A stretch of DNA of 64,000 bases from Trebouxia sp. TZW2008 (lineage: Eukaryota; Chlorophyta; Trebouxiophyceae; Trebouxiales; Trebouxiaceae): contig BDIU01000205.1 of the NCBI GenBank assembly GCA_002118135.1, forward strand, positions 124,001-188,000, in the 5' to 3' direction. Of this stretch, positions 150-64,000 are shown piece by piece. The notes beneath the pieces are model-generated. The model searched no databases and was not told where the DNA came from. It was given only the letters and a program-made list of their open reading frames with translations. Both the position numbers and the translations under genes were made by a program. The first letter of the stretch is position 1. Every line of letters begins with the position of its first letter.

Positions 150-3100
150 GGATTCCCCGGTTGAGGCCACGCCACACATCAGTAAAGGCGCGCAGCAACG
201 AAATTGCAACAGTGTCAGCAGCAACTGTGACAGCTAAGCAGTCGCCAGCTACTGTACAACCCGACGGCAGCGTATTGTCAGCTCCTGGTTTCAGCAGCAC
301 ACAGACGCTAGAACGCAGACAGCTACAAGGAAGGGAGGTTGAGGAGCGGGCTTTGGACTGCTGCGTTCAAGCACATCAGGAACGCCCGAATGGCTTGCAG
401 TTGCCCAGCAGATTTGGCGACGGAGGTCTTGACGAAGCATATGAACGATGTGGAGTTGTTACTGCGAGTTATGCCAAAACATTCTACTTGGGCACACAGC
501 TGATGACACCAGAAAAAGCCAAAGCCGTGTGGGCCGTCTATGTCTGGTGCCGACGGACGGATGAGCTCGTTGATGGACCAAATGCCTCTCGCATCACGCC
601 TGAGGTACACAGCACTGATCTCTGTGCCAGGTGTCGTTGCTCAGCAGCTTGGCTTTGTAAACAGTGTACAGCAACCTGCTGGTTCAAAACAGAGATATCA
701 GGCAATACAGCAGCAAGCAGGCACACATTTGCCGCTCAGCAGGATTGTCACGATGCTGCAATCATGACAACACTGTTCGTGTAGTACAGTAGTTCAAAGC
801 TCCCTGCTCTACTGTTCTTGGTTGCAATGAGGCAACAGCTGTGTTGCAAGGTAGTCACAGCATCCAGTGCCCTATTCTGCAGCGTCATCGCTGAACTCAT
901 CATTATTATGCACCAAATATGTGTTATCAAATTTGGCACTCAATGATTACTGATGTTGTTGCAGGCACTAGACAGATGGGAGGAGCGATTAGAAGGTATC
1001 TTTGAGGGCCGACCATATGACATCCTAGACGCAGCACTGACGGACACAGTCAGCAAATTTCCAGTCCACATTCAGCCGTTCCGAGACATGATCGATGGGA
1101 TGCGGATGGACCTTGTCAAGCAGCAATATGAGAGCTTTGATGAGCTGTATGGCTACTGCTATAGGGTAGCCGGCACTGTAGGGTTGATGACAACGCCTAT
1201 CATGGGCATTGACCCCTCATATAAGGTGGAGTCCCTGAAAGCTGTCTTTACGTCTTTGTCAATGTGCTACAAATCTGATTGCGCCTACCACGGGCATTGC
1301 CCTTTTTACAAGGTGGCCAGCAAAAGCTGTCTCTGCATGTTTCTCAATGCATCTATGTAGGTGTACATGGTGGGTGACTGCTTCAGGCAGTCCCCTTTGC
1401 ATGCTTGTTGCCTATCAACAGTGCAAACAGTGCATGTGACATTGCAAATTGACCAGCTTGACCAGGGCCACTGATCCAGGAGCAGCCTTTGCATCTTCCC
1501 AAAAGCACTAACGCAAAGGTACATAGCTGGCTGACTGCGTCAAGCTTATCTGTGGACTTACTGTGTCTCCAGGTACAGTTCAACAATTTTGGCTTGTGCA
1601 TTGAGTTGCGCACTGCTGCGATGTGAAGGCTGTTGCGCAGACTGTGATGAGTGCTGCTGTTTGCAGGTCTGGTGGGTAAAGATGCGTCAATCTCAGCAAA
1701 CATAACAAATGCAGGGCTGTTGCGGCTTTAGCATATTGCATTGAGCATGTGCTGCACACAGATCAGCGTTAATTGCTAAGCAATTTTCAGCCAACCAGGT
1801 CAGCATCCGTTGCAAGCTGGCGGCTTGCATTCATATTCTCCAAGACACATCGCCAGATCAGGGAGGGATGTGTACAATGCAGCGGTAGCATCAGGCACTG
1901 CACTGGTTTTACGCTATTGACTGGCCATACCTATGATGACTGCAGGGCCCCTTCAGAGATGTACAAGGCAGCACTTGTTGCAATCGCTTGTCAAAATTAT
2001 CTCCTGACATACCCTCATGCATGTCTCTGCTTGCCCTTGCGCCTCCTTTGATCTCGTTTGTAATGACTGCAGGGGCCTTTGAGAGATGTGTACAAGGCAG
2101 CTTTAGGGCTAGGCACAGCAAATCAACTCACCAACATCCTGAGGGATGTTGGCGAGGACGCAACAGAGCGGAACAGGATCTATGTTCCCACAGACGAACT
2201 CAAGCAGTTTGGCATCACTGAGTCTGATGTAAGCTCCCCTGTGACTGTTGCACAGCACCCGTTTGCTTTTGCCGTCATACCCTGTGGTCTTTTAGATGTT
2301 GATTGATGTCAGCATGAAGCTTTTTAGAACTCTGCAGTTTGTAATGGGTTCAATTCCCAGGATGGAATTATGCTGTCTTTTTGTGCACAGGAGTGTCTGT
2401 GTGATTTTTCCTTACAACAATCAGGCAAGAGTGTGCCTCTGTCAGCCTTGCTTGACAGACGCTATCACCTAGGTGTACAACTTTGGGTACAAGAGATCCT
2501 GCTATACAGTGTTTTCTCTTTATAAGGACACTTGATATGAGGACATTCTGGTTGTAGGGACAATGCATTTGGGAACCAATCACTGCATTTTGACTGTAGC
2601 GGTACTTCTGAGTAAGAACAATTCAATGTAAGGACAATTTTTCTGGTAACCAATGCAGTCGTCACAAAGAGAAATTACTGTACATGCTTCATGCTTGCAC
2701 TCACCTGTTGATGCACAATTGCAGCACTTGCAGAACTTGTTACACAATCTCATGCATCTCTGCTCGCAGGTGTGCATGGGCTTCATTATATATATTTGGC
2801 TGTTGTGCAGGTTTCTATTGGGATGTTTGCTCCCAGTGCAGGCAAAATTGATGTCAGGTGGCAGCAGCTCATGCATCTGGTTCAAGCCACACTGCCATTG
2901 AGTCACACGTATGTTTGGCTGCTGTGCAGGTTTACCATTGGGATTTTTGCTCCCGGCACATGCAATAGTTGATGACAAGGGGCAGCGGTTCACGCATCTG
3001 CTTTCAGCCAAACTCCTGTCCATGTATATATAAGTTTTGCTATTGAGCAGGTGTGTACTGGCATGTTTGTGCCCAGCACAAGCAAGGCCGGTGACAGTCA

Positions 3101-5232: not shown

Positions 5233-8200
5233 ATGATGGACAGTGCAGATAGCCTTCATCAGGTCGAGCATCAGGTTGGCGTGGAAGTGATTCACGACAG
5301 CACTGCAGATGCTTCTGCTGACAACAATGCACCAGCAGTTGTTCCCGACGCCTCTCAACCTCTCAGTGCTGCGGAAGCACCTGATCAGCAGAACAGTAAC
5401 GAAATCGGAGATGCTCCTGCTTCACAGGCGCCAGCTGATGCTTCCAAGGCTGCCTTATTGCCTGCTATAGCTTCAGGCGACTCTGCAGTACCAAGCTCAG
5501 GGACATCTTCGTCCAAGCCCAGAGCAAAAGCCATTGATGCGGAGAAGAGTGCTGGAAGCCTCTCCAAGATCAACAAGCTGCTGCATGGCTTTGGAGCTAG
5601 CAGGCTTTCAAACACAGGCACAGCACTCGGTGGTGCGGCCTACACAGATGCTCAGGTCAGTTGCACCTTTGCCGGTTGTGCACAAAGCTTACTTGTACAA
5701 TGCATGTGTATGCGCATTGTATCTGCACCATGGCATGTGGGATCAAGACAGTCTAGCCCCAATCTCTGTGCCACAGTGCTGACCATGTATTGCCAGGGCG
5801 CCAGCCTCTTACTTGCTTTGGGCTATCACCGCTTGTCTGCCAATGTCTGTCATGCCAAGTGATCATCATGCAACTCTAGCCTCAGTAGACAGGCATTGTT
5901 TGTGGCGTCAACTCCTGCACCAGCTACCACCGCAGTGGGTACAACAGCGCTCTCACAGCGAGCACTGGCATCAGCCCCCTTTCACCTCAAGGTTTGGCTA
6001 TGCCCTGCAGGTTGCAAGTATGAGATACAGCTCCAAAGCAGACTTTTCTGGCAGTGCGCTTCACATCTTGCACCGCGGCAGCAACTACATCACATACATT
6101 GCCACTGCTCAGCAGACAGGGCTCAAGCTGCTGCTCAAAGCCTATGATCTTGGTAAGCCTTCTTCTTGCTGGCAACTGGCTAAAAAACGCCTGCCCCAAG
6201 CCATGCCACACCATTGCATTGCATCATGGCAGCAACTATATCACCTAAATTGCCACTCCTGGGCAGACAGGGCTATGATTTGGGTGAGTCTTCTTTGACT
6301 TACCAAGCCTGTCTGTGGTCATGTCATCAACCCCTTAGCCGAGCTGTTGTTGTTGACGTGCGTAAAGGGCTTTGACAAAGCCCCTTGGACCGCAGTCTTG
6401 AACATGAGGCAGTGCAGAAGTGATTCATGAAGAGAAACTTTCTCTCTGCCTGCAGTGACTATGTTGAATGGGCTGCATCCCCGACACAAGTCCAGCAGCT
6501 GCATGAAGAGTTGCTGCAAGCCTAGCTCAATGACTATGTCCAAACTTCATGCTGCCTGCATGTTTGCACTGTGATGTTGTTCAAGGCAAATTGACAGATG
6601 CAGACCTTGCAAACAAGTTAGCATACTGACAACCCTCAAGCGTGTTCCCATGCTAGTAACAGTGATTCTGGTTGCATGCCATTTCAGGCAAGATGATAGA
6701 TGCAGAGCTTGCGGCTGCCAAGAAAAGCTCAGCATGCTGACAAGCCTCAAGCATGAGGGCATTGCCAGGTGTCATAGCTCCTGACAAGATGGGAAGCACC
6801 TGCATCACGCTGCTCATGTGCTGTTGCAGGCAAGATGACAGATGCAGATGTTGTGTCTGTGAAGCAAAAGATCAGCACGCTGACAAGCCTCAAGCATGAG
6901 GGCTTTGCCAGGTGCCGCGGCTCCTGGCAAGATGAGAAGCACTTGTACTACGTCCAAGAGTACGGCATCCGAGGAGATCTTTTCACCGAGATGTTCTCAG
7001 AGCGGTGAGTGCTTTGTTTTTTTCATCAGTAATTCTGAACGTGTTCTAGACAGGCTCAGCAGGCCCAGCTAGGTATGTACTGGAGCAATCAACTGTTTGT
7101 CATCAGTTTGGTCCTGTGCTATCCCATGTCTGAGTGTTTGACTGCATACCACAGGCATGCCACTTGTTTGTCTTCTGCATAGCAATGCAGAAGTTGACCC
7201 TCCTACTAGTGTACATACTTGCTGTGTAAAAGTGGTGAATTGTTTTGGTGCATATAAGCAGCAGCTTTCAGGATAGTGCTCCACTGACACAGCAATTGAC
7301 TGTGCTGTCTGTGCGTGTGTGCAGGCAGCGCCTGTCAGAGCGTTTCATTGCTTGCAAAGTGCTGAAGCCATTGCTGAACGCACTGGTTGAAGTCCACAGC
7401 CGCCAAATTGTACACAGGTCTGCCTGCTTTGCTTGCTGCTTTGAGTTTGCTGTTCCTGCTGCAGTGGTTTGCTGTCGCGCTTCTGATGCTGTGGTGTTGA
7501 ATGCCACACTCATCATGCTGATCTCTTGGTCCTGCTATATTGTCTTGCTGTTACCCGACTTGCACAACGGTTCCTGCACCTTTGTCAAGCCCGTACTGAG
7601 TGCATTGGTTGATGTTCACAGCCGCCAAGTTGTACACAGGCCTGCCCACTTTGCCTGCTTGAGGCTTGCTCTGCTCTGCTCTGTCTCCATCTTTTTGAGC
7701 TCCTGCTGCTTTCCCCAACTTTTTGTTTCTTCCCATGCTCTTTTGGTCCTACAATGTCAGCACTGTTTTGTTCTGCTTGCACAACACATCATGTACCTCC
7801 ATGGCCCTCCTTGTGCTATAGGGGCACAAGGCGTTGCATTTGGGAGCATCGCAAATAGGTGTCATTGAATGCAGCCCGTGTTGCTCAAGACTGTAAAGCT
7901 TGAGCAATTTTGCTGCATCTCATTGCACATATTCATGTTGCCAAGCTTTAAGTTCTCCCCATAGCAGAAACTCCCAATGCCAGACATGTATGTGTCATTG
8001 CAGAAGCATTCTGCCTGAGAATCTACACTTTGACAAGGACCTCAACATCAAGCTCAGCCACTTCAGCTCGGCAGTGGATCTGAGCTCTGAGTCGCCCTCC
8101 ACTGAGTCTGAGCTTAGCAGACCAGCGAGCTTTGTGGACTACCTTGCCCCTGAGGTGTGCTGCCATTTTGCTTGCATTCTTCCCCTTCTGCCTGCACTCT

Positions 8201-11200
8201 TTCTCTTCTGCCTGCAGTCTTCCTCTTCTGCCTGCAGTCTTCCTCTTCTGCCTGCAGTCTTTCTTCTGCAGCCTACCTGCTTGTGCCTGTATCTGCTTGC
8301 ATTCTTCCTTTCCTGCTGAGGCTTATTCTGATGCTGCCGCTGATGTTTCTTCTTTGCGCAGAAGCTTTCTTTTGCCTCCTGCCAATGCTTTGCGCTCACA
8401 TCTTCTGCTGCTCCTTGCTAATGCCTTTCCTAGTGATGTTGATGGGTCTCCTGCTGGTGCTGCCTGTTTCTACATATGCTGTTGTGATGGTGTACAGGTC
8501 CGGGACGTCATAGCAACACCCTGTCTGAACCGGTCAGGCACCGCATCATGTTTTTTGTGACTGCTTGGTCACACGCTGCAAGAGACAGAATACCTTCATC
8601 TGCCATGATATTACCTTTCTGCCTTTTCTTCAGAAATTTGATTTGCTGTACGGCACTGCTGCATAACTTCTTGCTTGCATGGCAGGTGCTGCAATACTGC
8701 GGTCCAGACAGCAATGCTCACCAAGCAAAACGGTCAGCGCAAGCCTCAGCAGCACATACAATGACTCAAGCAGCAGCACAGCCAGAAATCCAGTCCAACA
8801 AATACACTTCAGTACAGACACTGTCACAGACTGCAGTACAGTCAACAGCAGAGCAACCTGAGCTGCAGACGGACATACGCACCTCAGGACAGACTCCGTC
8901 ACAGACTGCAGTAGACTCAACAGCAGAGCAACCTGAGCTGCAGACAGACACACGCACCTCAGGACAGACTCCATCACAAATTACAGCAGAGTCAACAGCA
9001 GCGCAGTCGAAGCTGCAGATAGTCACACGCACCTCAGGACAGACTTCCACTCAAAGTGCAGCAGAGTCAACAGCAGCCGCCAGCAATGCACAGTTGTTCC
9101 CTTTTGGCAGTGAGTACGCTAGCAGAGTACCGCCCTTCAGGAGGAAAGCTGGGTATGATCAGAAGGCAGATATTTGGGCTGTTGGCTGCCTGTTGTTTGA
9201 ACTGCTGACAGGTGAGCGCTGTCTCTGCTGTGTCTTGCACAAGACGACAAGGTCCAGACAAAGAAAGAAACGATAAGCCTATGCTGCCAGGTGTCATAGT
9301 AGAAGCTTGTGTGAGTTTGCGCAGCACCTAGCAAGGCTGTGTACGTGAAGACAGTGCTTTGACGCGTTTGCTGTCTGATGCCTCAGTATTGCCTGTGCAT
9401 AGACAAATGCGCAATGCTTTTTGATCTGTCTGCATCTTGAGGCTTTCAACATGCCCGACGTCAAATCTTTCAGCTGTTTGGCCATCTCTGCAACTGACGC
9501 TCCTTTTCAAAGATGGCCAGCTGGCACACCTTCCAGCTGTTTGGCCATCTCTGCAACTGACGCTCCTGTTCATGTATTGCAGTTATTGTCATTCTCATGT
9601 CAAAAGAGATTGCAACGTGCAGGAAAAGGCCCCTTTGAGGTGGGCAACAAGGAGCTCACCTGTGCCCTCATCTTATGGGGTACCATTCAGAATTTTCCCC
9701 AGAAAATGTCCCAACCCTGCACTGCTTTCATCCAGGTGTGCTCAAGCAAATCTTCTTTATACACACCCTTCATACGCACATGCGTTGCCTTAAACAAGCA
9801 TGGCCTCACACGTGCATTGCCCAAGCAGCCTTTGCAGATTACTTGTTGCTAACCCGTAGCACAGAGCTTCCTAAGAGAAAAGACAAGTGTCTGCCGACTG
9901 ATGCCCCTTGACAGTCACATGCCTGCTGCATCTGGGCAGTCTTTGATATGATGGCTGTTGATCTCTTCCCACATGACATGGCAGACTTTGCGTATCTGAA
10001 CTTGGTATTAGCCTAAATACACAGGGCCAACTCCAGCAATGCTGCACTAAAGTACAAGCGTCAAACAGATGCCATACCCCCAAGGGGCATCAGCTCTTGC
10101 AGCATGACGTGGCAGACTTTGCCCATTCTGCAGCTCCAGCATGCTGATGCAAGCACTCTAGCTCTGAAAGCAAAGTGTCTGCGCTGCATCATTGTGCCTC
10201 GCACTTGTGGTGGTGCCCAACACACAGACTACCCATGTAGCCAGACTGATGCTCTGTGTTGCTGCTGAAGATAGCATCTGATGCCCTGCCCTGCTCAGGC
10301 CAACAGCCCTCTGCCCTCATACTAGCGGTCAAGCTGTTTATCAGAGTCTCTGATATGCTATCACCACCATCACCGCTCTCATTATAGTGATCAAGCTGCT
10401 TGTCACTGTCTCTGCTACCACCGCCATTACCACTGCCGCCACCACCATTCTCAGTCTAGCAATCAAGCTGTTTATCACTGTCGCTGCTACCACCGCCATG
10501 AACACCATCGTCACTGCCACCATCACCAACATGTCATATCTTGAGGCGAGACAGCACTATTGAACAGCACCAAACTGATGGCTTGCCTGCCTACAGCAGC
10601 AAGTGGTCTACTTCAGTGTTGTCTGTTGTGCTGTGTGTGTAAGCCTGCTTGAGGACAGCACTTCAGCGCAATCTGCTTCACCTGTTGCATGTCTGTCAAA
10701 GCAAGCATGCTTAATTCAGAGCCCGAGGAAGGATCTACTGCCTTGTAAACAGCTTGCCTGCAAGATTGCAACAGCAGCATGGCATCTGATCAAAGCTTGT
10801 TTCAGTGCTTCACCAGACGCCTCAGACTGGTTGCTTGGTGTTTGTTACACTGTGTGTGCAGGTCTGCCTGACTGAACACCCCAGGGAGCGGCCGTCAGCT
10901 CAGCAGCTGCTGCAGCATGACTGCACTTAGCAAGAGAGCAAATTCGATGTCTTGTCTGGCCACAACAGTGTGTGTCAGGACTGTCTGTTGAGCAAAGTGT
11001 GCAGGCCTGCCTGAGCAAGGATTCCAGAGAGCAACCACCAGCTGAGCAGCTTCTGCAGCATCACTGTACTCAAGAGGAGCATGAAAGTGATGGCCTGCTT
11101 GCCCACAGCGAAAGCAGATCTGCTTCAGGGTCGTCTGACATGCTGTGTGTGCAGGCCTGCCTGACTGAAGATCCCAGGGAGCAGCCATCAGCTGAGTATG

Positions 11201-12255
11201 ACTGCACTTGTCAAGGGCACAACAGTAATGCCTTACCTGCCCACAGCAACAGGGATATATTTCAGTGGTGTCAGTTGCGCTGTGTGTGCAGGCCTGCCTG
11301 ACTAAGGACCCCAGGGAGCGGCCATCAGCTGAGCAGCTGCTGCAGCATGAGTGGCTTGTTAAGCAAGTGGAAGCTGAAGCAGCCGGCGTGCCTGAGGTGA
11401 GAACAGCGGAATAGGCCAAGCAAAACAGATTGAACCAATTTGTATGGGATTGACTGTTGCGCGTTGGCACCTGCTACAGCTAATTATCAGTCACAGCTGT
11501 ATCTTGAGGCTGATTGAACTGAACTGAATCAACTGAAATCGGATGGACTTGAATGCTTGAGACGGACTGAATGGTACTAAGAACATAAGACATGCAGGTT
11601 GAACAGCTGCTTGAGTTGCATCATTTGCACACCTTGCTGTGGTTTCACATGAAGCTGTGGCATATCATAGCAATGATGCCATGGCATAGTCTTGATGGCT
11701 GTCGTGAGGCTTGATGGCTTTTCTTTGTTATTTTCCTGATGCCAACCATGTTAGTGGTCATGAGAGTCATAAGGAGAAGAACGTCCTTCTGGTGGTTTTG
11801 AGTGAGTCTGCCTGTGAGGCTCTCTGAGTGTGTCCACAGTATTTGTAGAGCTTCTGCAGAATGCAAACGCATTGTCGCACTGCACATGACAAGTGACGCT
11901 GTTCAGCAGATGCTTGTGTTGATGTAAACACTGTACAGAGTCGCCTCTGAAAGCCTTTCATTGTGAGTGACTATACATGCAGGGTCTGGAGTTCACATCT
12001 ACTGAGCAACGGGCAGCAAGCTCTTCTTCCTCCAGGTGGTTGTCTAGGCAGCTCACAAAGCTCAAGAGCAGCAATAACAGGGCTGCGACGCAACACATCG
12101 GTGCAACAGACGGGCTTGAGAACATTAGTTTGCCAAGCAGACGGTACCCTTTGCATGTGCCCAAGTTGTGTCGGCCACGTGTGTCTGACATTGAAATGGG
12201 TAACAGCGAACTCCAAGGAGAAAAGCAGCCTTACGTAAGGACGCTGAGCAGCTAG
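5233..12255 (+). CDS. Degenerate Ser/Thr protein kinase (probable pseudokinase)
   Basis: Phase-consistent exons are 5233-5655, 6011-6152, 6830-7004, 7325-7417, 8004-8154, 8686-9211, 9623-9735, 11292-11396 and 11983-12255, giving 666 aa. Residues 1-141 are Ala/Ser-rich and look disordered. From ~155 a kinase fold follows: beta-3 lysine candidate K184 (LLLKAYDL), LKHEGF, YYVQEYGIRGDLF, then IVHRSILPENLHF where HRD is expected (catalytic Asp replaced by Ser279), and LSHFSSA where the DFG motif is expected (Asp replaced by His297). The glycine loop keeps one of three glycines. APE, KADIWAVGCLLFELLTG and the C-terminal KDPRERPSAEQLLQHEWL are well conserved. A ~150-residue Gln/Ser/Thr-rich insert separates APE from helix F. 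All exons are open, so the gene looks expressed but catalytically dead. The closest active family is uncertain (AGC/CAMK/Aurora-like). Confidence 0.85.
6180..6290 (+). repeat. Ghost copy of pseudokinase exon 2 donor edge
   Basis: A decayed copy of the last ~100 bases of the exon ending at 6152, with the G|GTGAG donor context at about 6275-6285. Shared blocks include GGCAGCAACTA and GGGCAGACAGGGCT. It lies in the intron downstream of the functional exon. Confidence 0.8.
6565..6800 (+). repeat. Ghost copies of pseudokinase exon 3 acceptor edge
   Basis: Two copies, near 6570-6640 and 6685-6800, of the acceptor and 5' part of the exon at 6830. The cores are GACAGATGCAGACCTTGCAA and AAGATGATAGATGCAGAGCT. 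The second extends about 110 bases, through CTCAAGCATGAGGGC, and keeps a CAG acceptor. Both contain frameshifts relative to the functional exon. Confidence 0.88.
7560..7650 (+). repeat. Ghost copy of pseudokinase exon 4 donor edge
   Basis: A copy of the 3' part of the exon 7325-7417, including CACAGCCGCCAAGTTGTACA and the CACAG|G donor context, about 225 bases downstream. It is still open in frame (VDVHSRQVVHR), which makes it one of the better-preserved ghosts. Confidence 0.85.
8165..8268 (+). repeat. Pyrimidine/CTGCAG minisatellite
   Basis: About five tandem ~20-21-base units with the core TTCCTCTTCTGCCTGCAG. Each unit is a near-perfect polypyrimidine tract plus CTGCAG, that is, a run of strong-looking 3' splice sites. 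It lies just after the donor at 8154 and 420 bases before the acceptor actually used at 8686. Confidence 0.85.
8827..9051 (+). repeat. 75-bp coding tandem repeat (25-aa units)
   Basis: Three in-frame 75-base units inside exon 8686-9211, containing AEQPELQTD and RTSGQTPSQ, followed by a diverged partial unit. The units make most of the low-complexity insert between the APE motif and helix F of the pseudokinase. The 75-base length keeps the frame. Confidence 0.9.
9466..9572 (+). repeat. Direct repeat of ~36 bp in an intron
   Basis: The block AGCTGTTTGGCCATCTCTGC with its following GACGCTCCT occurs twice, about 63 bases apart, in the intron before the exon at 9623. It does not resemble a flanking exon. 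Confidence 0.8.
10329..10535 (+). repeat. 61-71-bp intronic tandem repeat with CCACCACC runs
   Basis: Three units start near 10329, 10390 and 10461 with TCAAGCTGTTTATCA-like blocks, followed by CACCACC/CCGCC-rich sequence. It lies in the 1.5-kb intron between 9735 and 11292. No coding sense is seen. Confidence 0.75.
10858..11215 (+). repeat. Ghost copies of pseudokinase exon 8 acceptor edge (3 copies)
   Basis: Three copies start near 10862, 11004 and 11154, ahead of the functional exon at 11292 (spacing about 140 bases). Each has a GTGTGCAG-like acceptor. The protein sense is LTEHPRERPSAQQLLQH, LSKDSREQPPAEQLLQH and LTEDPREQPSAE, against LTKDPRERPSAEQLLQH in the functional exon. Reading frames are largely intact, so these copies are recent. 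Confidence 0.93.
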
Positions 12256-32531: not shown

Positions 32532-32760
32532 GAATTCATGCTGGCGTGCTCTGCTTGGTGTGTGCTGTCTGACAGCAGGCTGTGAGGGAGAGACACCGGG
32601 AAAGTCTGTCTGATCTGGTAAACTGTGTGCTTGTGCTTGTCTCACACAGCTGTGCTGGTGAAGTCTGCTTGCTGGACCAGTTGATGTTGTGAAATGCTGA
32701 TCTGTAGCAGTGTTGGAAGCGTTCTGCAGCTGACAATGCTGCTGCTGCTGCTGCTGCTGC

Positions 32761-32794
<34 letters not shown>

Positions 32795-47300: not shown

Positions 47301-50300
47301 GTCTGTCCTGAGCACGTCCAGGGTAAGCAACCATTTGCCCAGTCACATTCCATCTTGTCTTGCAAGGTTGCCTTCAGCTTATTGTCATGCTTGTTCATGC
47401 CACATTCTGCATTTCAATGGCTCAGTCCCATTTTGTACGAAACTGCCCCAAATGTGCCATCTCAACCCGATTGTCCCCATCATCATGCTTGGGGTGGGGC
47501 TTCGTAATCCTGCTAGGTGCATACAGACGCAGTGAACTGCCTCCAAGTCATTCTGCCTAAAGCCATGTTGTACTAGCAGACATATGACGTCACTTCGTGC
47601 AAATGGAAAGCTGCCATCTGACCACTTGAGTGGTTCCAGCCACTTGTGCATTTGACCAAAACCATGTTTCACAGACAGCCCTTGGGCCACACACCCTTAG
47701 CACCTGTGCTAAGATGTGGAATGCACTTTTGTCATGGTTGCAGCTGTTGTCATAGTTGCTTCTGCTGCTGCTTCTGCTGCTGGCGCTCGCATGAGTGTTA
47801 TCATCTTTCACATTTGCAGGCAATGGCAAGTAAGAAGGGTGCCATGCGGGCGCTGGGGCGAGTGGTGCGCAATGACGAAGCAGCCAATGAGGTGGTGGCC
47901 GCGGGTGGCCTGGTCCCTATCATTACCCTATTGGACTGCAATGACAACTCAGTGGTCAGGAGGTAAGCTCTGCCCTGACATTCCAAGGCTTGTTGAATAG
48001 TCTTGAACACTCAACACTGACTGTGAATGTGTCCGTGTTGACGCTCATTGACAATAGTGAATGTTGGTGTCGACATGCATGATGCTGGACATAAACTGTT
48101 TTGGCAAAGCAAGACTCTGACTCCACGTATGCCCAGCATCTGTGGCGGACAGTTCAGTGCCTGTTGTACATGCCGCTGCTGTTGCTTGCAGCACCAGTCA
48201 GCTGTGTACTTCACACTACTCAACACGGGAGAGTGCTGCAAAGAGAGGAACAGGTTTTCAGTGCTGGTGTTGAGAAGCTTCTGTCTGGTCATTGTGGCGG
48301 TCTCTGCAGATGCTTGATTATCGTCATCATTTATATGCTTGTCAGTGAGGTCCATGAACTCCTCAAGAGCATCCAGGAAATGTGCAGTGCTTGTTCAAAG
48401 GCACCAACTGTCAATGCACAATAAATCTCATTTGTTTGGCCATCTGTGCAGGTGTCTGATGGCGCTGTTTTTCATGCATGCGGACAAAGGGGTGCTGCAA
48501 GGAGAGGTTGTGTCAGCGGGTGCAGTGCCTGGCGTTATCAAGCTGTGCAGCAGTGCTAACTCTGAAGTGCAAGCAGTATCAGTCATTGGCATCCAGAGTT
48601 TTCTGGTCTAACCACTGTACCATTTATGCAGGTGCTTGATGGCGCTGTATTTCATTGGAGCGGACAAGGAAGTGCTGCAAGGGGAGATTGTGTCAGCAGG
48701 TGCAGTGCCTGGTGCCATCAAGCTGTGCAGCAGTGCCAACTCTGAAGTGCAAGCAGAGGCGGCTGATCTGCTCAAGGTGGGCTTGTTCATTTCTATGAGC
48801 ATTCACTTTGGGGAGTTGGCACAGTCAATACTGCTATTGAGCCAGGGCTGTAAGGTGGCTAAGTCATGTCCCCTGGAGTTGTGGCTGCTTGTCTTGAATG
48901 CCAACTATGCCTTACGGAGTCAAGCGTACCAGTGGGTTGAAGCCCAGCTGCCACTACTGACAAGATGGCTGTGTTGTGTCGCCTCAGGCCGTGCTGCTTG
49001 CATTGACTGGCAGCCCTGCTCAACGGAATGCGCTGAAGCCAGGCAGCATTTGTTATTGTGTGGGCTTTTGCTTGCTGATGAGGACTTTTGCAGTGGCAGG
49101 GCCGATCGCGTGTTTCTTGTGTGATTAGGCATTGCTGTACCTGGTTGCAGGTGCTAGCACGCAATCCAAGAGCAGCTGTGACCATAGTCCAGGCAGATGC
49201 ACTGCCAGCATTGGCCATGACTGCTGGAGAAGGCCTCACAGAGCGTGCCCAAACCAATGCTATCAAGGTATACCCATTGACCTGCATGTCGCAGAGTGAG
49301 TACTGGACTTTGCTTTCAGAACCTGCCACGCAGTTGCAGCGTGCTGATCATGACATCATATGACTCAACGGATGGAGGGCACCATTATGCTCTTGAGCAT
49401 GGAAGCGTGACCTTTACCTTCCCTGAGCCTTGTGCCAGCATGCACACACGCTCATGGACATGCCACCTGTCATGCTGTGCAATGGCTGTAGTATCAGCTT
49501 TGAAACAGTTGCAAGCTTAATTTATTGCCTTTCAATGCCCTTACGCCTGCTGCCTTTGGATTTAACAATAGTCTGAGTACTGGCTTTTCTGAAGCTGACT
49601 TGCTTGTTATACTGCCATATGTCCAGAAGACGATCTCACCAAACTTCATTTTGTCACAGGCCATACAGAGGCTGGCAGGGACTCACAGCGTGGAGGCCAT
49701 GGTCTGGAACAGCCCTGCTGGCCGCTTCCTGGACCCACAGGTATGCCAAAGTCTTGAGTAATTTGACCTGCTTCTACTGACAGAAGCTCCTGTTATGATG
49801 TCAAAAGGCACAAACCCTTCAAACTTTTTACTCATACGCATAGCTGTAACCAAAGTCAGCCAGTTTTTACAGTAAGCCTGAGTCTGCTGATCTGTTACAT
49901 GTGAGCGTATCATGCCATTGCCATGTCTCATGTGCAACAATACAATGTGCTGCGAGGCATTGGTAACTCACAACAATCTCCTACACCCTTTGCTTTTGGA
50001 CCTTATGCACTGGATACTTCAAGCAGCATAAGGTATGGGCTGCTGTGCTTATCAACTACTGGGTAAAGTGGTTTTCGCAATTTTGCACGTGTACCGTAAC
50101 AAACCAACGAAGTATTGTACGTGGTGCAGGTTGGAGCTGCCACCAGCACAGTCACAGGTGCTGGCGGTATTGAGCTGGCAAAGCAGTATTCTGACGGGCA
50201 AGCCCTGCTGCAGCATGAGAGGGACCCGCCTGGACATGAGGCTGCACCCAAGTAAGCACACTATTTTCTTTGCAAACCCACAATGCTGTTGTTTTTGCAA

Positions 50301-53300
50301 AGATCGAGCCTACAGCAAAGCAAGCACAATGGTTTCTGCTGCAGGCCTTTGGGCTACGTTGCGTATGTGCCATGCTGTTGTCTACAAGCCCTTGTGTGCT
50401 GCGCCTGTCCTCTGCCTGCTGTTCAGCCTGATATTGCCCTACTAGTATAGCTTCTGCTTGGACCATATGAAATTCAATCAAAGACATCACTTTGTTCACG
50501 CCACTGACATAATCTCTGACCCTTGGTTGCAGAACTGCACTGTTTGGGGATGACGTAACCACCCTTGCTCTATTGCCATTTCAGAGAAGTTCCAACTGTT
50601 TTTCTTGGCCTTGTCCTGTTCTGCCTCAAACTGGGGATGTATGTATGCAGGGGTGTGCAAGGGAAGGGCCTGGTTGCCCCATTAGTCCACCTTTTAGTCA
50701 GCGGGGGCCCTTCTGATCAGGCCCGCGCTGCACGTGCCCTCAGCAACATGGCCACTGACTCCTCTGTCAAGGAGCAGATAGTTGCAGCAGGTATGGCATC
50801 GCCGACACACTGTGTTTTGCATGAGCCTTCTGCATTTGCACATTCTTGCTGCAAAGTAGCATATAATTTCTGCAGGTTTGGCATCACCCTGCACCATGCT
50901 TTGCATGAGCCTTTTCTGCTTGAAGTGCATTTTGCGTGAGCGACACAGCTGACTCTTCTGTGAAGGAGCATAGTTGCTGCAGGTTCAACACTGTGCTGAG
51001 CAGGAGTCTTTCTTGTTCAGCCTACTTTTTGCCTGAACAGAGTTGCTCATGACCGCTTCTCATGCCTTTGCTCAGATCTGCCACTGTGTAGCGCCTCGCT
51101 GTTCTGTCAGACTTGATCCAATGCAACAGCTGCGTTCATTTGTGCATTGTACATGTGTGCTGTGCACTCATCCTGCCCGCAGCAAGCACGTGTCATACCC
51201 TAGACATGCTGGTGCCCATCAATAGCCATAGCCACATGATTTTGAGCTGTTTGTATGCTGACGGGTTTTGCATGATCTGCAGGTGCTGTGCCAATGCTGA
51301 TTGAGATAGTGAAGGAGGGCAGCAGTGCAGTGCAGAGTGCTGTTGTAGCTCTGGAGAAGCTATGCTCCCATGCGTCAGGTTGGCCATGCTCCTCTTGCCA
51401 AAATGCCCTTTCGGCTAGAGCTCTTTCCAACCAAGAATTTGATGTTGCTTATTGCTGTCATTTGCCAAAGGCCCCAGAGCGCAGCTCCTGCATGGCATCA
51501 ATCACCTCCTGTGCAAGGGTGTCAGCCAGCATCTGGAGCTCCTCTGCCTCACGCTAATGTTGCAATCCATCAGCACCTCAAGGAGAATCTATGACCCTGC
51601 CAAGCGCATGCAGAAGCAGATGCACTGTAGATTGTAGACCACCGGTCACAGTGCAATATTCACAGGGAGTTCAGCAAGCCACCCTGGCAGATAATTCCCT
51701 GTTGCAGACTAAGTTTATGTAGCAGCTGCAAAACTGCTGAAAACACGCGTCAGCTGGGCTGCTGAGCAAGGCCAAATGTGTGCTTGCACGCAGCAAAGCC
51801 ATGGTGAGTGGAGTAAGTGAAAGTGACATTCTTGCACTGCTGTTGACCACAGTTTCCTGGCTGTGTGCTTGCGGTTTGTGCAGTGTTGAAGCGTGGCGGC
51901 ATTGCTGCGCTGCTGGGTTGAAGAGCAGCCCCTGCACGCTGACTCTACATGGCACAGCAGCTGCAACTCTGCTTGGCTGATGTCTTGGCTTTGCTGCTAA
52001 GTGATGCTGTTTGCATGCTTGCAGGTAGTGAAGCTATGATGAAGCATGGTGGCATTGCTGCATTGCTGGAGCTGCTGAATGATGGTCACCTGGAGGCGTG
52101 GGCCAGCGCTACCCATACCCTTCACATGCTTTGTACCTCCACGCCCTCCGCCACCCTCATGATCATGCAAGCAGGTATGATCCTTGACAAAGTCTTTGGG
52201 TGATGCATTTGCCTTGTGTCTTCAAAAGACTTGCTGAATAATGCTCATCTTGAGGCTTGGGCCAGCGCCACCCACACCCTACATATGCTGTGCACTTCCA
52301 CACCCTCTGCAACCTCATGATCATGCAAGCAGATAATACGTCTCAGTCGATTTCTGAAGTGTATGTCCTGGCACACGCTGCCCTCCCCCCTCTGCTGAGC
52401 CCCTCGTGTCTCCGGCTGTTATAATTGTGCAAGCAGACATGACTGACGGTCATACATTGCAATTGCAATGGTCATTAAGGTGAAGGGTTGTTTGCACCCA
52501 TGATAAGTCAGCAAAAGAGATAGAGATAGGGAGAATGCATGCTGTGGTTAGCCAACAAGACTGATTGCGTGTGTCAAACCCTGATCAAATATCGAGATGA
52601 TGAAGGCAATCAAGAACAAACTTGAACACCTGCATACGATCCCTTTGCAAGGTGATTTGCTGACTGCAGGCGGAGTGACAGCACTGATGCATGCTTGTGC
52701 TGGCAGCCCAGCAGAGCTTCAGATTGCAACACTAACAGTCCTACGTCAACTGGTTGCTCAGCCAACAGGGCCTGACGCTTTCCTGGTGGCTCGAGCCATT
52801 CCTCTTCTTGCCACACTGCAGCACTCGCTTGTTGGGGAGATCAATGTTGCTGCTACCAAAATTCTGGACAGAATCTCAGCAAGCAGTGGCTCTGCTGAAG
52901 AAGCTATTGCAGAGGAGCATTCAGTCCAGGTGCGTGGGCCTTTTTTACACGCTGTGCTGTTTTTCGTGCGAATGTGTCACAATGCAAAGCACTCATAGAG
53001 CTTGACATTCTGGACATACTTTCAGACAACAGTGGCTCTACTGATACAATCTTAGCCAGCTTTTTTCTGCTGAAGAAGCTGGTGAGCGTTCAGTTCAACT
53101 GTGTGAGATTTCTGCTGCATATGCCTTGCTTCTGCTTGTGCGACAGCTACAGCAAGCTTGAAACATGATTTCAGTTGCTGAATGCCACTTGCACAACAGC
53201 AACCGGCTGTAGGAAGCTCTCATTGCACTTTGCCAAAAGGTGTGAGGGGTAGAATTGAGATGCGGGGGGTGGCAATGGGGGTGCTGCCCCCCCTGGAGGC

Positions 53301-56300
53301 TTTCAGCTCTTGCACTGGCCCTATCTTTACCCAACAAATGTCAGTTCCCAGAGGCAGGAAGCTGTAGGAAGCTCTGATTGTGCTTTGCAGGAAGGAGTAA
53401 ATGACATGGTGGAGCAGCTACGGGTGGCTGTCGTGGTGCTGCCTACTCTGGAGGCTGCCTTCAGGCTTGTTCCCAGATCAGTCTTCCTTGTCTCTCATGC
53501 GGTAAGCATTCAATCAGAGTGTTGACTGCTTCCTGCAAAACATTGCATCATCTTTTGTACAGTGAGCAGCTGGTGCTCTTTCAAAGCAGCCTTCAAGCTT
53601 GTGCCCAGATTGGTCTTCCTCATCTCCCATGCAGTAAGCACCCAGTCCCTGCTTTGAGAGCCTTTTGGAACTTTGCAGCGGCTGCTTTCAGGCTTGTCTC
53701 CAGATCAGTCTACCTTGTCTTGCATGCAGTAAATTCCACATCCTGAAGTGCCTGGCACAATAATAAGTGTTTCATATTTCTGTCTGCAATTTTGCTTAAA
53801 GCAGCCTTGTACGTACACCATGCAGTAAACACCCAGTCACGCCCTCTGATTGCTGCGAAAGTCTTTAATGTATTGCTTTTGGTGTGACTCGGCTGCTGTT
53901 TGCTCACATTAGCTTCATGCTGGCGTGAGATCCTTGCTGCCTGTGTTGCATCATCTTGCTAAATTCCTGCCTGCATTTGCTGCTGTCATGCCAGGCATGC
54001 GAAATTTGGAAGTCCTATGTGCTGACAGACTTTGGCTGGGTAATGCAGGCTGATCGTCTTGGTGCTGCTCCAGCTTTTGATGCTGCTGCTAAGATTGGCG
54101 AGTTACACACGGAGGCGCTTTCTCTACAGGTATCGTGCCGACTTTTTACAGCCTCGGATTTGGCAATGACTTTCATCCTGCATTACATGCCCTCAGTAAA
54201 CACGACCTGTCTTGACTCGTCGTCTCAGAGCTAGCTTGAGCAGCATGTGATGCAGATCCATGTTGCTTGCCACGTCAAGATTGCTGTGTCTGTGGTCAGT
54301 CTCCAATGCACTTGATGTTGGCAAGAGCAGTCTTTGGCATTGGCGCTTTTTACTTTGATCTGCAATGTTGTGTGTGAACTGTCCTGACTCTGGGTATGGA
54401 TTGTGGCAGGCTCTAGGGCCTGAGGAGGGTCAAGCCTTCCTGGACATAGGGTCTGGCACAGGCTACCTCACAATGGTTGCAGCCAATTTGGTGGGCCATA
54501 CTGGCAAGGCTGTGGGTCTTGAGGTAGGCAATGATAACTCCAGTCTGATGGTGACAAAGTTGTTTGCGCAGAGCCCTGACACCTACTCTGCTCGCTGACA
54601 CATTGGTGACATGAATATTGCATCAGTCTCCAATCTCTAGGAAGACATGTACACAATGAGCTGTTGATGAACGTTCCTGTCTTCAATCATACTGTGCTGT
54701 CTTGGGCAAATGTCCCAAAATGGCATCATCGTCTTAGATTTGGGATCATGTTGATTGCTGAAATATCAGACCCACATAACCCTTTGCCCTCCTGCACAGG
54801 GATCCCAAGCACTTCAAGTTCTGCTGCTGCATTTGTGGCAAGGTGCATGCTTGGGTTGCCTTCACTTGTTGCCTTGCACAGATAAATGATGCTTTTCCGT
54901 ACTGTACAGTTGGAGCAAGCAGCCGTAGAGTATGCCTGCAGCAAGCTGCACCAGGTGAAGAAAAGCCGCGGCCTGCCTGCACTGTCTGCCACGTTCCTCA
55001 GAGGCAACATTTTCAGTGAGCACTGGTGTGAGCAGCTGGGCGGACCCTTTGACTGCGTCCATGTGGGTGGTAGCTGCTCTAAGGACAAGATCAACTACCT
55101 CATGCGCCTGGTCAAACAAGGTACACACCAATTCTGCTTTCTTGAAGCATTCCTGTCAACCTTCCTGTAGACATCGTGCTGGAAAGTGATCATGTTTGAG
55201 GATTGGTGCGAGCGGCTTGGAGGACCCTTTGACTGCGTTCATGTGCGCGGCACCTGCTCCAAGGACAAGATCGACTACCTCACGCGCCTGGTCAAGCAAG
55301 GTAGGCCAGCAAGCATCTGAGAATATGGCAGACGGCAGCATCAATGCTCGCATTATCTGTATATGCAAGTCAGGCTGCTGATTGTTGTCCACCGTCAAGT
55401 CACTGACACTGTTGCTGTTGTGTTTATTTGAGACAGTACAGCAAGTCCTTTCACTGTACCAACGCAAGCAGCAGCTACTGGAGAGGTCTCTGGAAGCTTC
55501 AAGCCATTTGTATAATGTGATATGCTGCGTCACATGTCAGCAGGTAGTCTTTGGTGTCAAGCATGGTTCAGTGTCAGCCCCACATCTGCTTATGTTATTG
55601 CTGCTATTGTCATCACGCATTTGTGCTGCTGCAGGCGGCAGGATGACAGTCCCGTGTGAAGGGCAGCTCCTGCTGATGACGCCTCCTTTTGATGGCCTGG
55701 TACCTGAGCCTATTGTGCTGGGCACAATGTCGGCTTGCCCTGGCCTGTTTGATGAACATGGCAAGCAGGTCAAAACTTCACTATGTTGTTGTTCAACTGT
55801 GTCGCTTGCCCACACATCAGTCGATGACGGCACAGGCAGCTTTGCATCCGTTGCACATCTGTGTATCAGCGAATTCTGAGTTATTGTCACAATGCTGTCA
55901 GTCAGTCAACTAATCCAACAAACAAGGTTGCTGTCTTTGGGTTTCAGCAGGAGCATGCACAATTGACACATACCAGTTGAAACATGTTCTGCTCACAATT
56001 ATGCCAGTATGCGAAATGCATTGTCTCAAGCCCACACAAAGTTGTGCCATTATGCGAAATGCATTGTCTGAAGCTCACATGAATTGGGCCCTGACAGTTT
56101 GGCAAACGCTACAGATGGCAGAGGAATGGTATGGCAACGTGACACAGCAGTCGTCACAGCAGTCCACCACCATGCCTTGGCAACCCCCCACCCCTATCAA
56201 GCACCCCTGGTCTGAGGGTAGCATCACCCCCCTCACAGACGCTGCAGGCGACCACCATGCCTCTGGCAGGTGAGCTTGCATGTCAATAATCAACCACAAT

Positions 56301-59300
56301 GGTTGCATAATTGCAGCCTTCACAGTGCTTAGATGCATGCTATTGTTACTTGGTAGTGCTGCAAGCAACCCATACCAAGCACTACTGGTCTGGCGTGAGG
56401 GTAGCATCACCCCCCTGACAGATGCTGCAGGGGATCATCATGCCTCAGGCAGGTGAGCTGACAGCATCTTGCATGCATACTTACAGCATTAGACCATCAT
56501 TTGTGTGCTGAGGTGCATATTGATGCAATTTTGGTGCATCAACATCATGCCTGCACATGTGCACCCCTGCGTGCATCACTGCCTGCAGCCTGCTTCAGCA
56601 TGGACACTTTGTCATGGGTCAGGAGATGTCATCTCAGGGACCAGTGGCAACTGTGACATCCTGTAGGACGGTGCTTTACGAGGGCATAATGTTGCAGGGC
56701 GCTTCAGCTGAGTGACCTGTCAGTTGTCACACCTGTGAACAAAGTCTCATGGGTCTTGCAGAACCGTGTTGCATGGGGGCAGATTGCCAGGAGGGCCCCC
56801 AGCTGAGCACCTGCCTTCTGACCAGCTGGGCCGAGAGGCGCGCTTTGCCCATGTGTATGACCAGGGCAGTGCTCCAAGCGATGCGACTTCTGATGAAGCT
56901 GAAGGGGAGGCACATGGCTGGCTCATTGCCAGGTCAGTGAGAAACTTGTCATCTTCCCAGCGCACAAGGCTCTCAGACAATTTGACTGCTTTGCAATGGT
57001 TGTCTGTATAGCATTGTTCCAGATTCAGGGCCACTCAGGCTGCCTAAGGTATTCATTTGAGCATGTCGCAGGCAAGCCTGGTCTGTCTTGTGCAGAATGC
57101 AGTGCACTTGGCATCGCATTGCTGGGGGCACTGCCTTGATTATACATATGTATATGGCGCAGCAAGCGAGCCTGGCCCAACATGCAAGGGACCCTTGATG
57201 GAACTGAAAAGGGAGGCACACAGCAAAACCTGGTGTGATTTCATTGTCCATTCAATGGTGTGATTTCGTTGTCCATTCAATGATGTGCTATTGCAGGGAG
57301 GACATCAGCATTTGCCGTACCTCAGAGAACAAGAAGTGCCGCCTTGGAGAGGGTGGTTTTGGAGTGGTGTACAAAGCCCTTATGAATGGGGTGGATGAGG
57401 TTGCAGTCAAGCTGGTGAAAGCTGACAAACCCACCAACAAGGAGTTGCTCCTGTTCCACAAAGAGGTACAAAAGCAGCGCCAGGATGCTGTGGGCGGTTG
57501 TGAAACAAGCCTGTTGTTGTTTGTGAAACAATGCTGCTTGATTACTACACACGTACTTTGTTGGATCAAAAATTGGTCAAGGCTAACAAGCTCAGCAACA
57601 AGGAGCTGCCCCTTTTCCACAAAGGTGTGTTTGCAAAGCCAGCATGCAGCAAGCAGCTGGTTCAGTTCAAGCCCTTGGTAGGGGTCAAGGATGTTTCACA
57701 AGCGCTTCATTGTCTCCACACATAAAAACTCCCATGCTGGGTTGGCAAAGCAGTTGCACTTGAGCACCTCAGGCAGGTGCACACAATACATTTGTCCATA
57801 GAAAGTCGGCTCTGTGATGAAGGTCTGCGCAATCTCATGGCTATCTTCAGCCTTGTGATCAGCAAAGCAGGCTTTATTAGTCTTCAGTTTTGACTTTGCG
57901 CTCACAAACTGGTCAAAAAGCGAAACCTGGCTGTGCAAGCAAATTCGTGCAGTATTGATGGTCAATCTGAGACTCAGACCGCCTAACTAGTGACACCAAA
58001 GACCCCTAGTCTTGGTCAAAGTAGCTGAAGTGAACAGCTTGAGCAACTGAACCCACTTCGCTCCAAGGCTAGGAGGCTTTGATGTCGCTTCATTGACAAG
58101 TGGATGTCACAACCGCAATGAGGTGGCTGTAGAGAGTCTCAAGAAACCCTGCTGCGCAAGCATATAGGTACAGTGGAAACCCATGTCACTGTAGGACCCA
58201 GACTGCCTATGTAGTGACATGAAAGGCTCCTGGCCTGCTGGCAAACTAGCCGACCTGAACAGCTTGAGCGACGGCAGCTTACTTGCGTTCAGGTCAGGAG
58301 CTCCCTGTGACACTTCATTGGCAATTTGGGTGTTGCACTGGCAATGAGGTGCCTGCAGCAGGCCTGTGAGCACAGCAGGGTCCAGGTCCAGACCAATTAT
58401 TCAGTGTGCAATGATTTCAAAACTTGCCATAATCTCTTGTGTTCAAAAATGGCTTCGTGAGGTTACTGCATGCACCTGCTTGTGTTGCACTAATCACCTT
58501 GACTGCCAGCTCTCACATTCTTGGGGACAAATGCTGTCTGTGGCTGTGTATAGACCAACAGCTGATATATCAATTTTCCCAGCTGTGCAGATCAGACAAA
58601 AATTGCTTTGATCGAACAGAATTTGCTGAAGCCCAGATCTGCTGCCCCCAATTTTGCAATGAGTGGACGGGAAAGTGTGCCACTTGCAGGTCCGGGTGTT
58701 GCGCACACTGCACCACCGCAACATTGTGCAATTTTATGGAGCATGCCTGGAGCCCAGCAGCATGTTCTTTGTCACAGAGCTCATGAAGGTAAACACATTG
58801 CTCATTCTCAAAGCCGTCTTACAATGGGATGTTGCATGATTATCCATATCACTCATCTATCCAGATTTGCATTGTTTTTTATAGAGCTCAGCAAGGCAGG
58901 CTGTAACATTGCAAAGCATGCTTCCTGTGGTCTTTTCATAGATTGCAAAAGGTCCTGGCGCCACTTGTCTGCATGGCCTTTGCAATGACTGCTATCATTG
59001 TGTTTGATGCTTGAATATCTCAACTGGTGTGTGTAGAGCTGTTCTCCTTTGTTATTGCTGTATAAGCTGTGTCTGTTTCATCTGTTTTTGTGCGCTGCCT
59101 CATGCACACAGTTTTGTGATGATGCTGCCATGCAATTGTGTCTGCCTGCCAGTCAGTGATGGCAATCCTGCTTGTTTCTTGCTTCATCGTAAGCACTTGG
59201 GATGAATGCATCACGATTTCAGCATCCATGTTATCCAGATACCAGAATGACGCTATGACCTATCTTGCGTTGATTCTGAATGTCATTGTTATGCCTGTGA

Positions 59301-62729: not shown

Positions 62730-64000
62730 ATGCCTCAGTCAGGGCCGGCAACGCCCTCCGCCCTGTACAAGATGATCAGTATCCCAGAAGCACAGGATGC
62801 AGTTCTAGCAGAGACCCAAAGCCTGCCAAGCACATCAGTAGGTATCGCTGATGCTGATGGACATATTCTGGCAGAAGATGTCAAGGCACCAGAGGACGTC
62901 CCTCCATTTCCAGCTTCAATCAAGGTCTGTGCATACTCACTGCGTGCGTCAATGTGCTACATCATTTCAATGCTGCTGACATGCCAGTCCTCTGCAATTG
63001 CATTTTCTGATTGCAACGTCCACATGCAGGAACGACTTTTGCCACATACACCTCGCACATGCGCTACTTATGCATCATCAAGAACATGAGCTAGAAAGTG
63101 ACAACACCAAACATTACCGTTACACTAATGTTGTTATTACATGCAGGACGGATATGCAGTTGTTGCATCAGATGGTCCAGGAGAGTATGTTGTGGCATTT
63201 GCAGCACATGCTGGCCATCAACAGCCAAGGCTACAATCTGGCAGTGTTGCCTACATCACCACAGGTTTGAAATACGCATATCTCATATCCTTCATCCTGC
63301 TGACCAATGCTAGCACCTGGCAGTGTTGCTTACGTCACCACAGGTTTGTGCTACATGTCTCATATCTCGTATGCATTTTCATGCTGGCCGGGGCTGGCAC
63401 CTGGCAGGGTGTTGCTTGCATCGCCACAGGTCTGTGAAACATGTCTCAGATCTCATGCATTTTCATGTCTAGCCAAGGCTTGAACCTAGCAGTATTGCAT
63501 ATATCACCACAGGCATGCATTGCTGCTGTCTAATGCCTGCACTTGTTGAGTCATTGTGTCTTGCACCTGTTGAGTCATTGTGTCTTGCACCGGTCACTCA
63601 TGCATGTCTGCTGTTTGACTTTTCAAGATGCTTCATGGTTTAGGTGCACCTGTGCCCGATGGTGCAGATGCAGTGGTCCAAATAGAGAACTCAGAACAGC
63701 TGCCTGACTTGCAGGACGGCAGCAAAGCATTTGAGGCATCCTGCATGCAAGGCACAAACATGTTTGCGATCCCAAGCGACACTTTGATGCAGACTGCACG
63801 ACAGTCATTGCACCGGAACTGCTCACCTTTGCCAAGAATTGTCTGGGTAGTGAATGTGGCAATTGAAGCAATGCCGCAACACACTGGCTGCCGCTATGCT
63901 GCAATCTCAAATGCATGCTGCATTTGTAGGTGCACCTGTGCCAGCTGGCGCTGATGCAGTGGTCCAGATAGAGAACACAGAACAGCTGCCTGACCGGCAA
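62730..64000 (+). CDS. CNX1: Molybdopterin molybdenumtransferase, CNX1/MoeA E domain (3' end outside window)
   Basis: The E domain of plant CNX1 (bacterial MoeA, animal gephyrin E) inserts molybdenum into adenylated molybdopterin in the cytosol. Exon 1 is 62730-62924: ATG, then MISIPEAQDAVLAETQSLP and ILAEDVKAPEDVPPFPASIK. Exon 2 is 63147-63264: DGYAVVASDGPGEY, then GSVAYITTG. The next exon starts GAPVP.GADAVVQIEN and exists in two copies, at 63644 and 63930. Its phase-1 entry fits either. These are the standard MoeA motifs PPF.AS..DGYAV and P.GADAVV. The start is well supported because the protein begins just before the conserved domain, as in E-domain-first CNX1 proteins. Whether a G domain follows cannot be seen. 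Confidence 0.93.
63280..63520 (+). repeat. Ghost copies of CNX1 exon 2 donor edge (3 copies)
   Basis: Copies near 63309-63345, 63398-63433 and 63484-63515 repeat CTGGCAGTGTTGCCTACATC and end CACCACAGGTT, CGCCACAGGTC and CACCACAGGCA (functional donor CACCACAG|GTTTG). Period is about 80-90 bases. The last copy has acquired a GC in place of GT. Confidence 0.94.
63644..63720 (+). repeat. First copy of CNX1 exon 3 (ghost or alternative exon)
   Basis: It reads GAPVPDGADAVVQIENSEQLPD after a GTTTAG acceptor. The second copy at 63930 reads GAPVPAGADAVVQIENTEQLPD after TTGTAG and runs to the window end. By the rule seen elsewhere (acceptor-side copies precede the functional exon) the second should be the working exon, but the first is fully open and usable. 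Confidence 0.85.

Follow-up and report, generated by a model that had tools for sequence, protein, structure and literature searches.

Here we examine a 64,000-nucleotide stretch of DNA from the green alga Trebouxia sp. TZW2008 (contig BDIU01000205.1, positions 124,001 to 188,000; hereafter the window), in whose introns lie decayed direct copies of the edges of neighbouring exons, together with their splice sites. The source assembly amounts to 68.5 Mb in 527 contigs, and we analysed 240 kb: the window, 6 kb past its end (L020, numbered on from the window) and one 10-kb piece from each of 17 other contigs. Gene models are the ab initio output of a hidden-Markov gene finder trained on the same 240 kb, with a start set of 13 window exons chosen by eye. 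It returned 40 genes, 314 exons and 274 introns, and learned CAG-GT(A/G)AG as the donor and TGCAG-G as the acceptor consensus (hyphens mark the junction). Nine genes were counted in the window, for which one merged gene model had to be split by eye into four. Pfam gives names to a phytoene synthase (PSY), three protein kinases, an ARM-repeat protein, a PCMT methyltransferase, a 2OG oxygenase and a FAST-kinase-like protein, and the ninth sequence, the extracellular part of a receptor-like kinase, has CBM_3 as its sole Pfam match, under the cut-off. In the whole window ARAGORN found no tRNA, and no Rfam family reached the gathering score.

The copies are on the plus strand in every gene described here except the receptor-like kinase, where they are on the minus strand. 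In PSY, a decayed acceptor-edge copy of exon 2073-2228 lies at 1936..1972 (87% to 2063-2101; under the threshold of the edge list given below), and two more, at 2801-2875 and 2920-2996, derive from the acceptor edge of exon 3125-3276 (92% and 86% to 3115-3189), which we take as functional on the gene model and on the match of the joined exons to Pfam SQS_PSY; the edge test recovered the stretch 2930-2996 again. As a query in a protein search, the PSY exon gave 161 exon-sized matches, and no relatives were found with it in one viral_contigs scan. Kinase A carries a copy at 6219..6274 beginning 29 nt in from the donor edge of the exon ending at 6152 (84%), two acceptor-edge copies of the exon starting at 6830 (6586..6786; 71% and 84%), a donor-edge copy of the exon ending at 7417 (7587..7639; 83%) and three acceptor-edge copies of the exon starting at 11292 (10864..11206; 84-90%, at distances of 137, 287 and 430 nt).

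The predicted receptor-like kinase (15973-32849, minus strand) consists of an N-terminal part, a proline/serine-rich stretch, a hydrophobic segment recognised by eye and a protein kinase, and near 19130-19406 a copied kinase exon may have been taken into its model. Acceptor-edge copies are found at 17762..17835 for exon 17517-17690 (84%), at 18454..18517 for exon 18192-18355 (81%) and at 31615..31715 for exon 31374-31559 (85%). Donor-edge copies lie at 21446..21518 for exon 21672-22322 (89%) and, with the donor dinucleotide retained, at 28500..28592 for exon 28667-28794 (89%), while three pieces from the donor end of exon 29591-29799 are spread over 29304-29348, 29423-29516 and 29549-29575 (87%, 93% and 89%). 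Near the donor edge, rather than at it, are the copies at 19485..19527 (exon 19812-20025, 32 nt inside the edge; 79%), 27637..27691 (exon 27797-28091, 24 nt; 78%) and 31253..31330 (exon 31374-31559, 22 nt; 83%).

Further along, four donor-edge copies follow the FAST/RAP-like exon ending at 37335 (37353..37673; 74-86%) and two follow the exon ending at 45206 (45261..45599; 76% and 83%). The ARM gene holds acceptor-edge copies at 45754..45809 (exon starting at 45905; 84%) and 48457..48551 (exon 48632-48776; 86%), a copy near the acceptor edge of the exon starting at 52025 (51884..51916; 85%), donor-edge copies at 50949..50982 (exon ending at 50790; 86%) and 52234..52332 (exon 52025-52174; 84%), and a copy at 53007..53044 that begins 31 nt inside the donor edge of the exon ending at 52929 (85%). 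At 46627..47246 the acceptor and the 5' exon edge form a tandem array with a 134-bp unit (4.6 copies, 87%, by Tandem Repeats Finder), the last copy of which enters exon 47176-47322, taken as functional; four edge copies in it match at 87-93%, the nearest being the least similar. In the PCMT gene, two donor-edge copies follow the exon ending at 53501 (53586..53727; 83% and 88%), and another, of exon 54910-55120, lies at 55197..55303 (86%). The latter keeps a 26-codon open frame at 55223-55300, a possible alternative exon, and is missing from the edge list because the gene finder predicted an exon there. Kinase B has a copy 26 nt inside the donor edge of the exon ending at 57489 (57574..57624; 82%). 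In the CNX1-like gene, donor-edge copies of exon 63147-63264 occupy 63304..63512 (85% and 83%), and an acceptor-edge copy at 63644..63728 (85%) precedes the exon starting at 63930 (63930..64000, onward to 64030 in L020), whose start is taken as functional on the gene model and on an alignment to plant CNX1 that does without the copy.

How common such copies are was measured by aligning the outer 100 nt of each exon to the adjacent intron, with a threshold score of at least 40. A copy was found at 81 of 524 edges (38 donor, 43 acceptor), against 2/524 for the reverse complement and 2/524 for other introns, and in exons above 220 nt the far edge matched in 0/111 cases while the near edge did so in 18/111. 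Decayed copies that the gene finder had itself predicted as exons (2811-2852 in PSY, 55223-55300 and 56357-56452 in the window; 64798-64860, 65098-65178, 67049-67081, 67399-67438 and 69214-69252 in L020) were kept among the 524 edges. Overall, 69 of the 274 introns, a quarter of the sample, hold edge copies: 31/77 in the window and the 6 kb beyond it (37/149 edges) and 38/197 on the other contigs (44/375 edges), where 12 of the 17 sampled loci have them. The original prediction, that introns carry local tandem copies of an exon edge and its splice site in eight of nine genes, thus stands, with both the opposite orientation and the far side of the exon at background and with the copies reaching beyond the window. 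The ninth gene, 2OG/AlkB (41054-42863), has zero edge copies at the threshold, and a weaker 76.5% pair (41856-41922 / 41995-42062) crosses one of its exon edges. Single copies occur at 45 edges, two at 27, three at 5 and four at 4. That introns are lengthened where copies sit, as also claimed, agrees with a median length of 646 nt for edges with a copy and 346 nt for those without, although longer introns give more room for a match. Altogether 8.5% of exonic bases (5155/60455) are matched by an 80% direct copy within the introns of their gene, and 0.15% by an inverted one.

Self-comparison of the window (E at most 1e-3) gave 80 direct high-scoring segment pairs (HSPs) under 4 kb, with none inverted and none farther apart, and the 240 kb gave 237 direct and 13 inverted HSPs. 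Greedy clustering, on which the cluster counts rest, reduced them to 115 local clusters, 108 of which have offsets of 60-260 bp, a spacing that is tandem-like as well as direct and local; the length of the duplication unit is about 100-220 bp, with a mode of 140-180 bp. Pairs of 12-mers less than 2 kb apart are direct in 4964 cases and inverted in 295, and their distances have a top bin at 160-180 bp, extra peaks around 300-340 and 480 bp and, owing to short tandem repeats, another excess at 20-60 bp. At least one local direct HSP is present in 22 of the 23 ten-kb pieces, 14 inverted HSPs are confined to four pieces, and a dinucleotide-shuffled control (one shuffle per piece, 23 pieces) gave zero local HSPs. 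Local tandem duplication across exon-intron boundaries, as first proposed, is supported by this direct, local and tandem-like arrangement.

Pooled edge alignments diverge by.12,.09 and.211 over the three codon positions, as expected when the exon is conserved and its copy free of constraint, in other words in neutral-like decay. Indels in the copies are not multiples of 3 in 55 of 58 cases, 17 single changes make stops, and the distance to the nearest copy shows no frame preference (30, 25 and 26 for remainders 0, 1 and 2 modulo 3). These frameshifts and stops speak against translatable whole-exon copies, be they tandem or mutually exclusive exons. More broadly, copies serving as mutually exclusive or cassette exons would account for the few frames that persist (e.g. 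55223-55300) and for the prediction of some copies as exons, but the frameshifts, the lack of frame preference and the alignment of the CNX1-like protein, which requires none of five omitted predicted exons, make this highly improbable.

Among the best 81 edge alignments, none of at least 50 nt exceeds 93%, and among the 115 clusters none of at least 50 nt exceeds 94.1%; either the process is slow at present, or young copies were collapsed in the assembly. The near-identical copies announced for 46636-47172 do not appear, the array at 46627-47246 being matched at 87% and its copies at 87-93%. Two haplotypes or strains joined in tandem by the assembly might also leave repeats of this kind, and the unit length does lie near a common short-read length. 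The copy at 52234-52332 looks allele-like by eye, with mostly third-position differences (1, 2 and 12 over the codon positions), but the pooled alignments with their neutral-like pattern led us to reject a haplotype join. The frameshifts and stops are not allele-like either, up to four regularly spaced copies occur per edge, no cluster passes the 94.1% just mentioned and the window holds only 2 N, so that we regard an assembly artefact as very unlikely.

The splice sites were copied along with the exon edges. The splice dinucleotide is preserved in 43 of the 58 copies extending to the edge (GT in 18/26, 69%; AG in 25/32, 78%), where chance would give 1 in 16. Retention near 73% is what the neighbouring exon dinucleotides lead one to expect, so the inner sites were copied and have suffered no special destruction. 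The used site outscores that of the copy in just 29 of 43 cases; with no special loss of the inner sites, the choice does not seem to depend on site strength. It would instead depend on exon definition, since a partial copy lacks the partner site. The query for the CNX1-like protein was built from the outermost copies, with five predicted exons resembling decayed copies omitted and with 7 and 2 residues removed by eye at the predicted exon starts 67607 and 69383, which means that those two acceptors are inexact. Among solved structures, plant CNX1 (chain 6rms_A) is the closest; the alignment scores 350.8 bits, covers query residues 2-326 and has only small gaps (1 to 5 residues), of which two lie close to junctions. 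This agrees with the claim that the protein is unchanged, and the outermost site is probably the one spliced, with the inner copy left in the intron.

Taken together, these data are best explained, with a probability that we put at about 0.7, by recurrent short tandem duplications that span exon boundaries, with use of the outermost splice site and decay of the inner copy. Head-to-tail duplications, about 100-220 bp long and with their mode at 140-180 bp, would recur within genes, often across an exon-intron boundary. Splicing would stay on the outermost copy of the site, only that copy's exon having both splice sites at normal distance, as exon definition would have it. The mRNA would stay the same, and the inner copy would turn into intron and then decay like untranslated sequence. 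Arrays might expand further via slippage or unequal exchange between copies, and regular copy spacings, for instance 174, 347, 493 and 667, suggest such an amplification.

Two elements of the original prediction do not enter this explanation unchanged. It had proposed a ratchet in which the intron gains one unit each time. A stepwise ratchet would have its newest unit adjoining the exon, but no age gradient is seen: at the 36 edges with at least two copies, similarity is higher for the nearest one in 16 cases, lower in 18 and tied in 2, which leaves the ratchet unsupported. It had also stressed polarity, with acceptor-side copies upstream of the exon and donor-side copies downstream. The direction itself is correct, as 41 clusters that cross a boundary in one copy only give 40 junction counts with this polarity (19.3 under random placement) and 3 with the opposite one (13.7), but it is not special evidence, because any tandem duplication crossing one boundary yields it automatically.

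Several observations weigh against the pattern or against the duplication reading as it stands. Besides the 3 junctions of opposite polarity, edge copies are denser in the window than elsewhere (25% versus 12% of edges), and the argument for the outermost site comes from the protein homology of one gene, that of the CNX1-like protein. The intron flanks of the copies point both ways: beyond the junction, 28 of 59 copies have a flank that scores higher than the 95% control level, in favour of duplication, and 31 do not, and the flanks are far more diverged than the exon part. Flank identity is.581, compared with.815 for the exon part and.496 for the control (n=93), and copies compared with one another give.609 for the flank and.772 for the exon part (n=45). 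Mean flank scores are 2.4-2.8, versus -5.9 in controls and 21.5-24.8 in a neutral simulation that assumes uniform duplication and models tolerance, decay and detection, and the idea that homology runs on beyond the copied part at its inner end was rejected, with 9/59 above the 95% control level. The alignments viewed had suggested a breakpoint exactly at the splice junction, a reading made uncertain by the homology of about half of the flanks; breakpoints near the junction might account for part of the flank and edge anomalies.

The distribution of the clusters also departs from expectation. Of the 115 clusters, 57 are edge-crossing, 22 intron-only and 5 intergenic; the ratios omit another 21 in which both sides are exonic and 10 that are partly intergenic. 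The simulated ratio of edge-crossing to intron-only clusters is 0.64-0.78 versus 57 to 22 observed, edge-crossing clusters being, relative to intron-only ones, 3-4 times commoner than in the simulation; the ratio to intergenic clusters is 1.07-1.49 versus 57 to 5. Local copies are found in only 2 of 237 intergenic windows. Among the 171 introns of at least 300 nt, 61 have an edge copy, and interior repeats occur in 35 of these and in 11 of the other 110. The excess at edges is weakened by another comparison, in which 100-nt interior queries from introns of at least 400 nt match about as often per window as exon edges do (161/647 and 64/237; reverse-complement 19 and 1). The unit mode, the scarcity in intergenic DNA, the excess at edges and the diverged flanks had no place in the original prediction.

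Exon-templated renewal would explain the edge excess, the intergenic scarcity and the diverged flanks together: the conserved exon would act as a donor, through gene conversion or unequal exchange, and refresh the edge copies while other duplications fade. This is compatible with the tandem-duplication explanation, as a second step after ordinary duplication, and exon parts are indeed far more similar than flanks, in copy-to-copy comparisons too, edge-crossing clusters are in excess, and interior repeats are scarce in introns that have no edge copy. No conversion tract is in evidence, however, the codon pattern by itself fits plain neutral decay, and interior windows match as often as edges, so that we advance renewal only tentatively. 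The bias could also arise with the mutation itself, if breaks or template switches near junctions, coupled to transcription, splicing or nucleosomes, copied a nucleosome-sized stretch. The unit mode of 140-180 bp, the near absence from intergenic DNA and the excess at edges speak for such a coupling, which would be compatible with boundary-spanning duplication as its mutational cause, but acceptor and donor sides are about equally represented (43 and 38), and we consider it rather unlikely. A combined scenario, in which exon edges seed intron growth, is doubtful as well: nucleosome-sized duplications would favour junctions, the conserved exon would renew the copies by conversion, and selection on the protein would indirectly drive intron length and repeat content. 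If the edge excess were truly mutational or conversion-driven, exon conservation would be linked to intron growth.

Other repeats share the window with the edge copies. Dispersed intron elements give 30 between-locus HSPs and fall into three families, which in the window lie outside the listed edge copies (by inspection). An element of about 180 bp in a PSY intron (2505-2690) has 7 other matches in 6 sampled loci, in both orientations, and its ends resemble, by eye, the terminal inverted repeats of miniature inverted-repeat transposable elements. One of about 70 bp is present at 46489-46570 and 60724-60777, at 66146-66217 and 66283-66334 in L020, and in 6 other sampled loci, and a further one at 7038-7124 recurs in three other sampled loci. 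In the receptor-like kinase gene on the minus strand, one predicted intron of 2.8 kb is for the most part a diverged tandem array with units of about 250 bp (25273-27638). Coding repeats occur too: in-frame 75-bp repeats at 8766-9077, after the LAPE motif in the kinase domain of kinase A, and a predicted 57-bp (19-residue) tandem repeat at 38654-38962, in the C-terminal part of the FAST/RAP-like protein.

To our knowledge, intron lengthening without transposon insertion has seldom been caught in the act. Here, 69 of 274 introns contain readable fossils with the exon as a built-in reference, from which the rate, the unit size and the splice choice between twin sites become measurable. Insertions are reportedly often short tandem duplications (Vaughn and Bennetzen 2014 and Messer and Arndt 2007 are said to describe them), and ours probably belong to the same mutational class, the gene and exon-edge bias being peculiar to the present case; the unit length may differ as well.

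Tandem genomic duplication is a recognised route of intron gain (PMC3443670). In the potato RdRp gene, an intron was gained by a tandem duplication crossing one intron-exon boundary (PMC4974935), a case that resembles ours in that the duplication spans the boundary and splicing still yields a product; it was, however, a single event that made a new intron, whereas here existing introns hold copies at 81/524 edges. The AGGT tandem duplication of Rogers 1989 and Hellsten 2011, as cited in PMC4974935, shares with our case the tandem duplication and the unchanged protein (PMC3443670). We tested 250 introns for the birth of introns by such a duplication of exonic DNA, which belongs to the same mutation class but has intron ends copied from both flanking exons as its signature: the 5' end resembled the start of the next exon in 1 (1.25 expected), the mirror case occurred in 0 and both in 0. 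With its signature at or below chance, this origin was rejected and is scarcely credible.

Exon copies in introns have been catalogued for human, fly and worm (PMC9013439), and tandem exon duplication (PMC9013439, PMC6071210) is similar in that exon-like copies in neighbouring introns are found by exon-versus-gene search; our copies are, however, mostly exon edges, and decayed. The 8.5% of exonic bases copied here compares with about 2% in human, 0.08% in fly and 0.06% in worm (PMC9013439; obtained by another search method on annotated genes). As with introners (PMC9860276), many introns of the genome are shaped by a single process, but introners place the same element in the introns of many genes, and we rejected that reading because the edge copies are local and gene-specific, with the other-intron control at 2/524 and no far HSPs in the window (E at most 1e-3). 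Among the matches listed, titles and abstract openings give no description of exon-edge copies as a genome-wide feature, subscription journals being mostly outside that search. This appears, then, to be a known type of mutation acting on a genome scale, and what would be new in it is the scale itself, the copying of partial exons, the size of the unit and the bias of the distribution towards genes.

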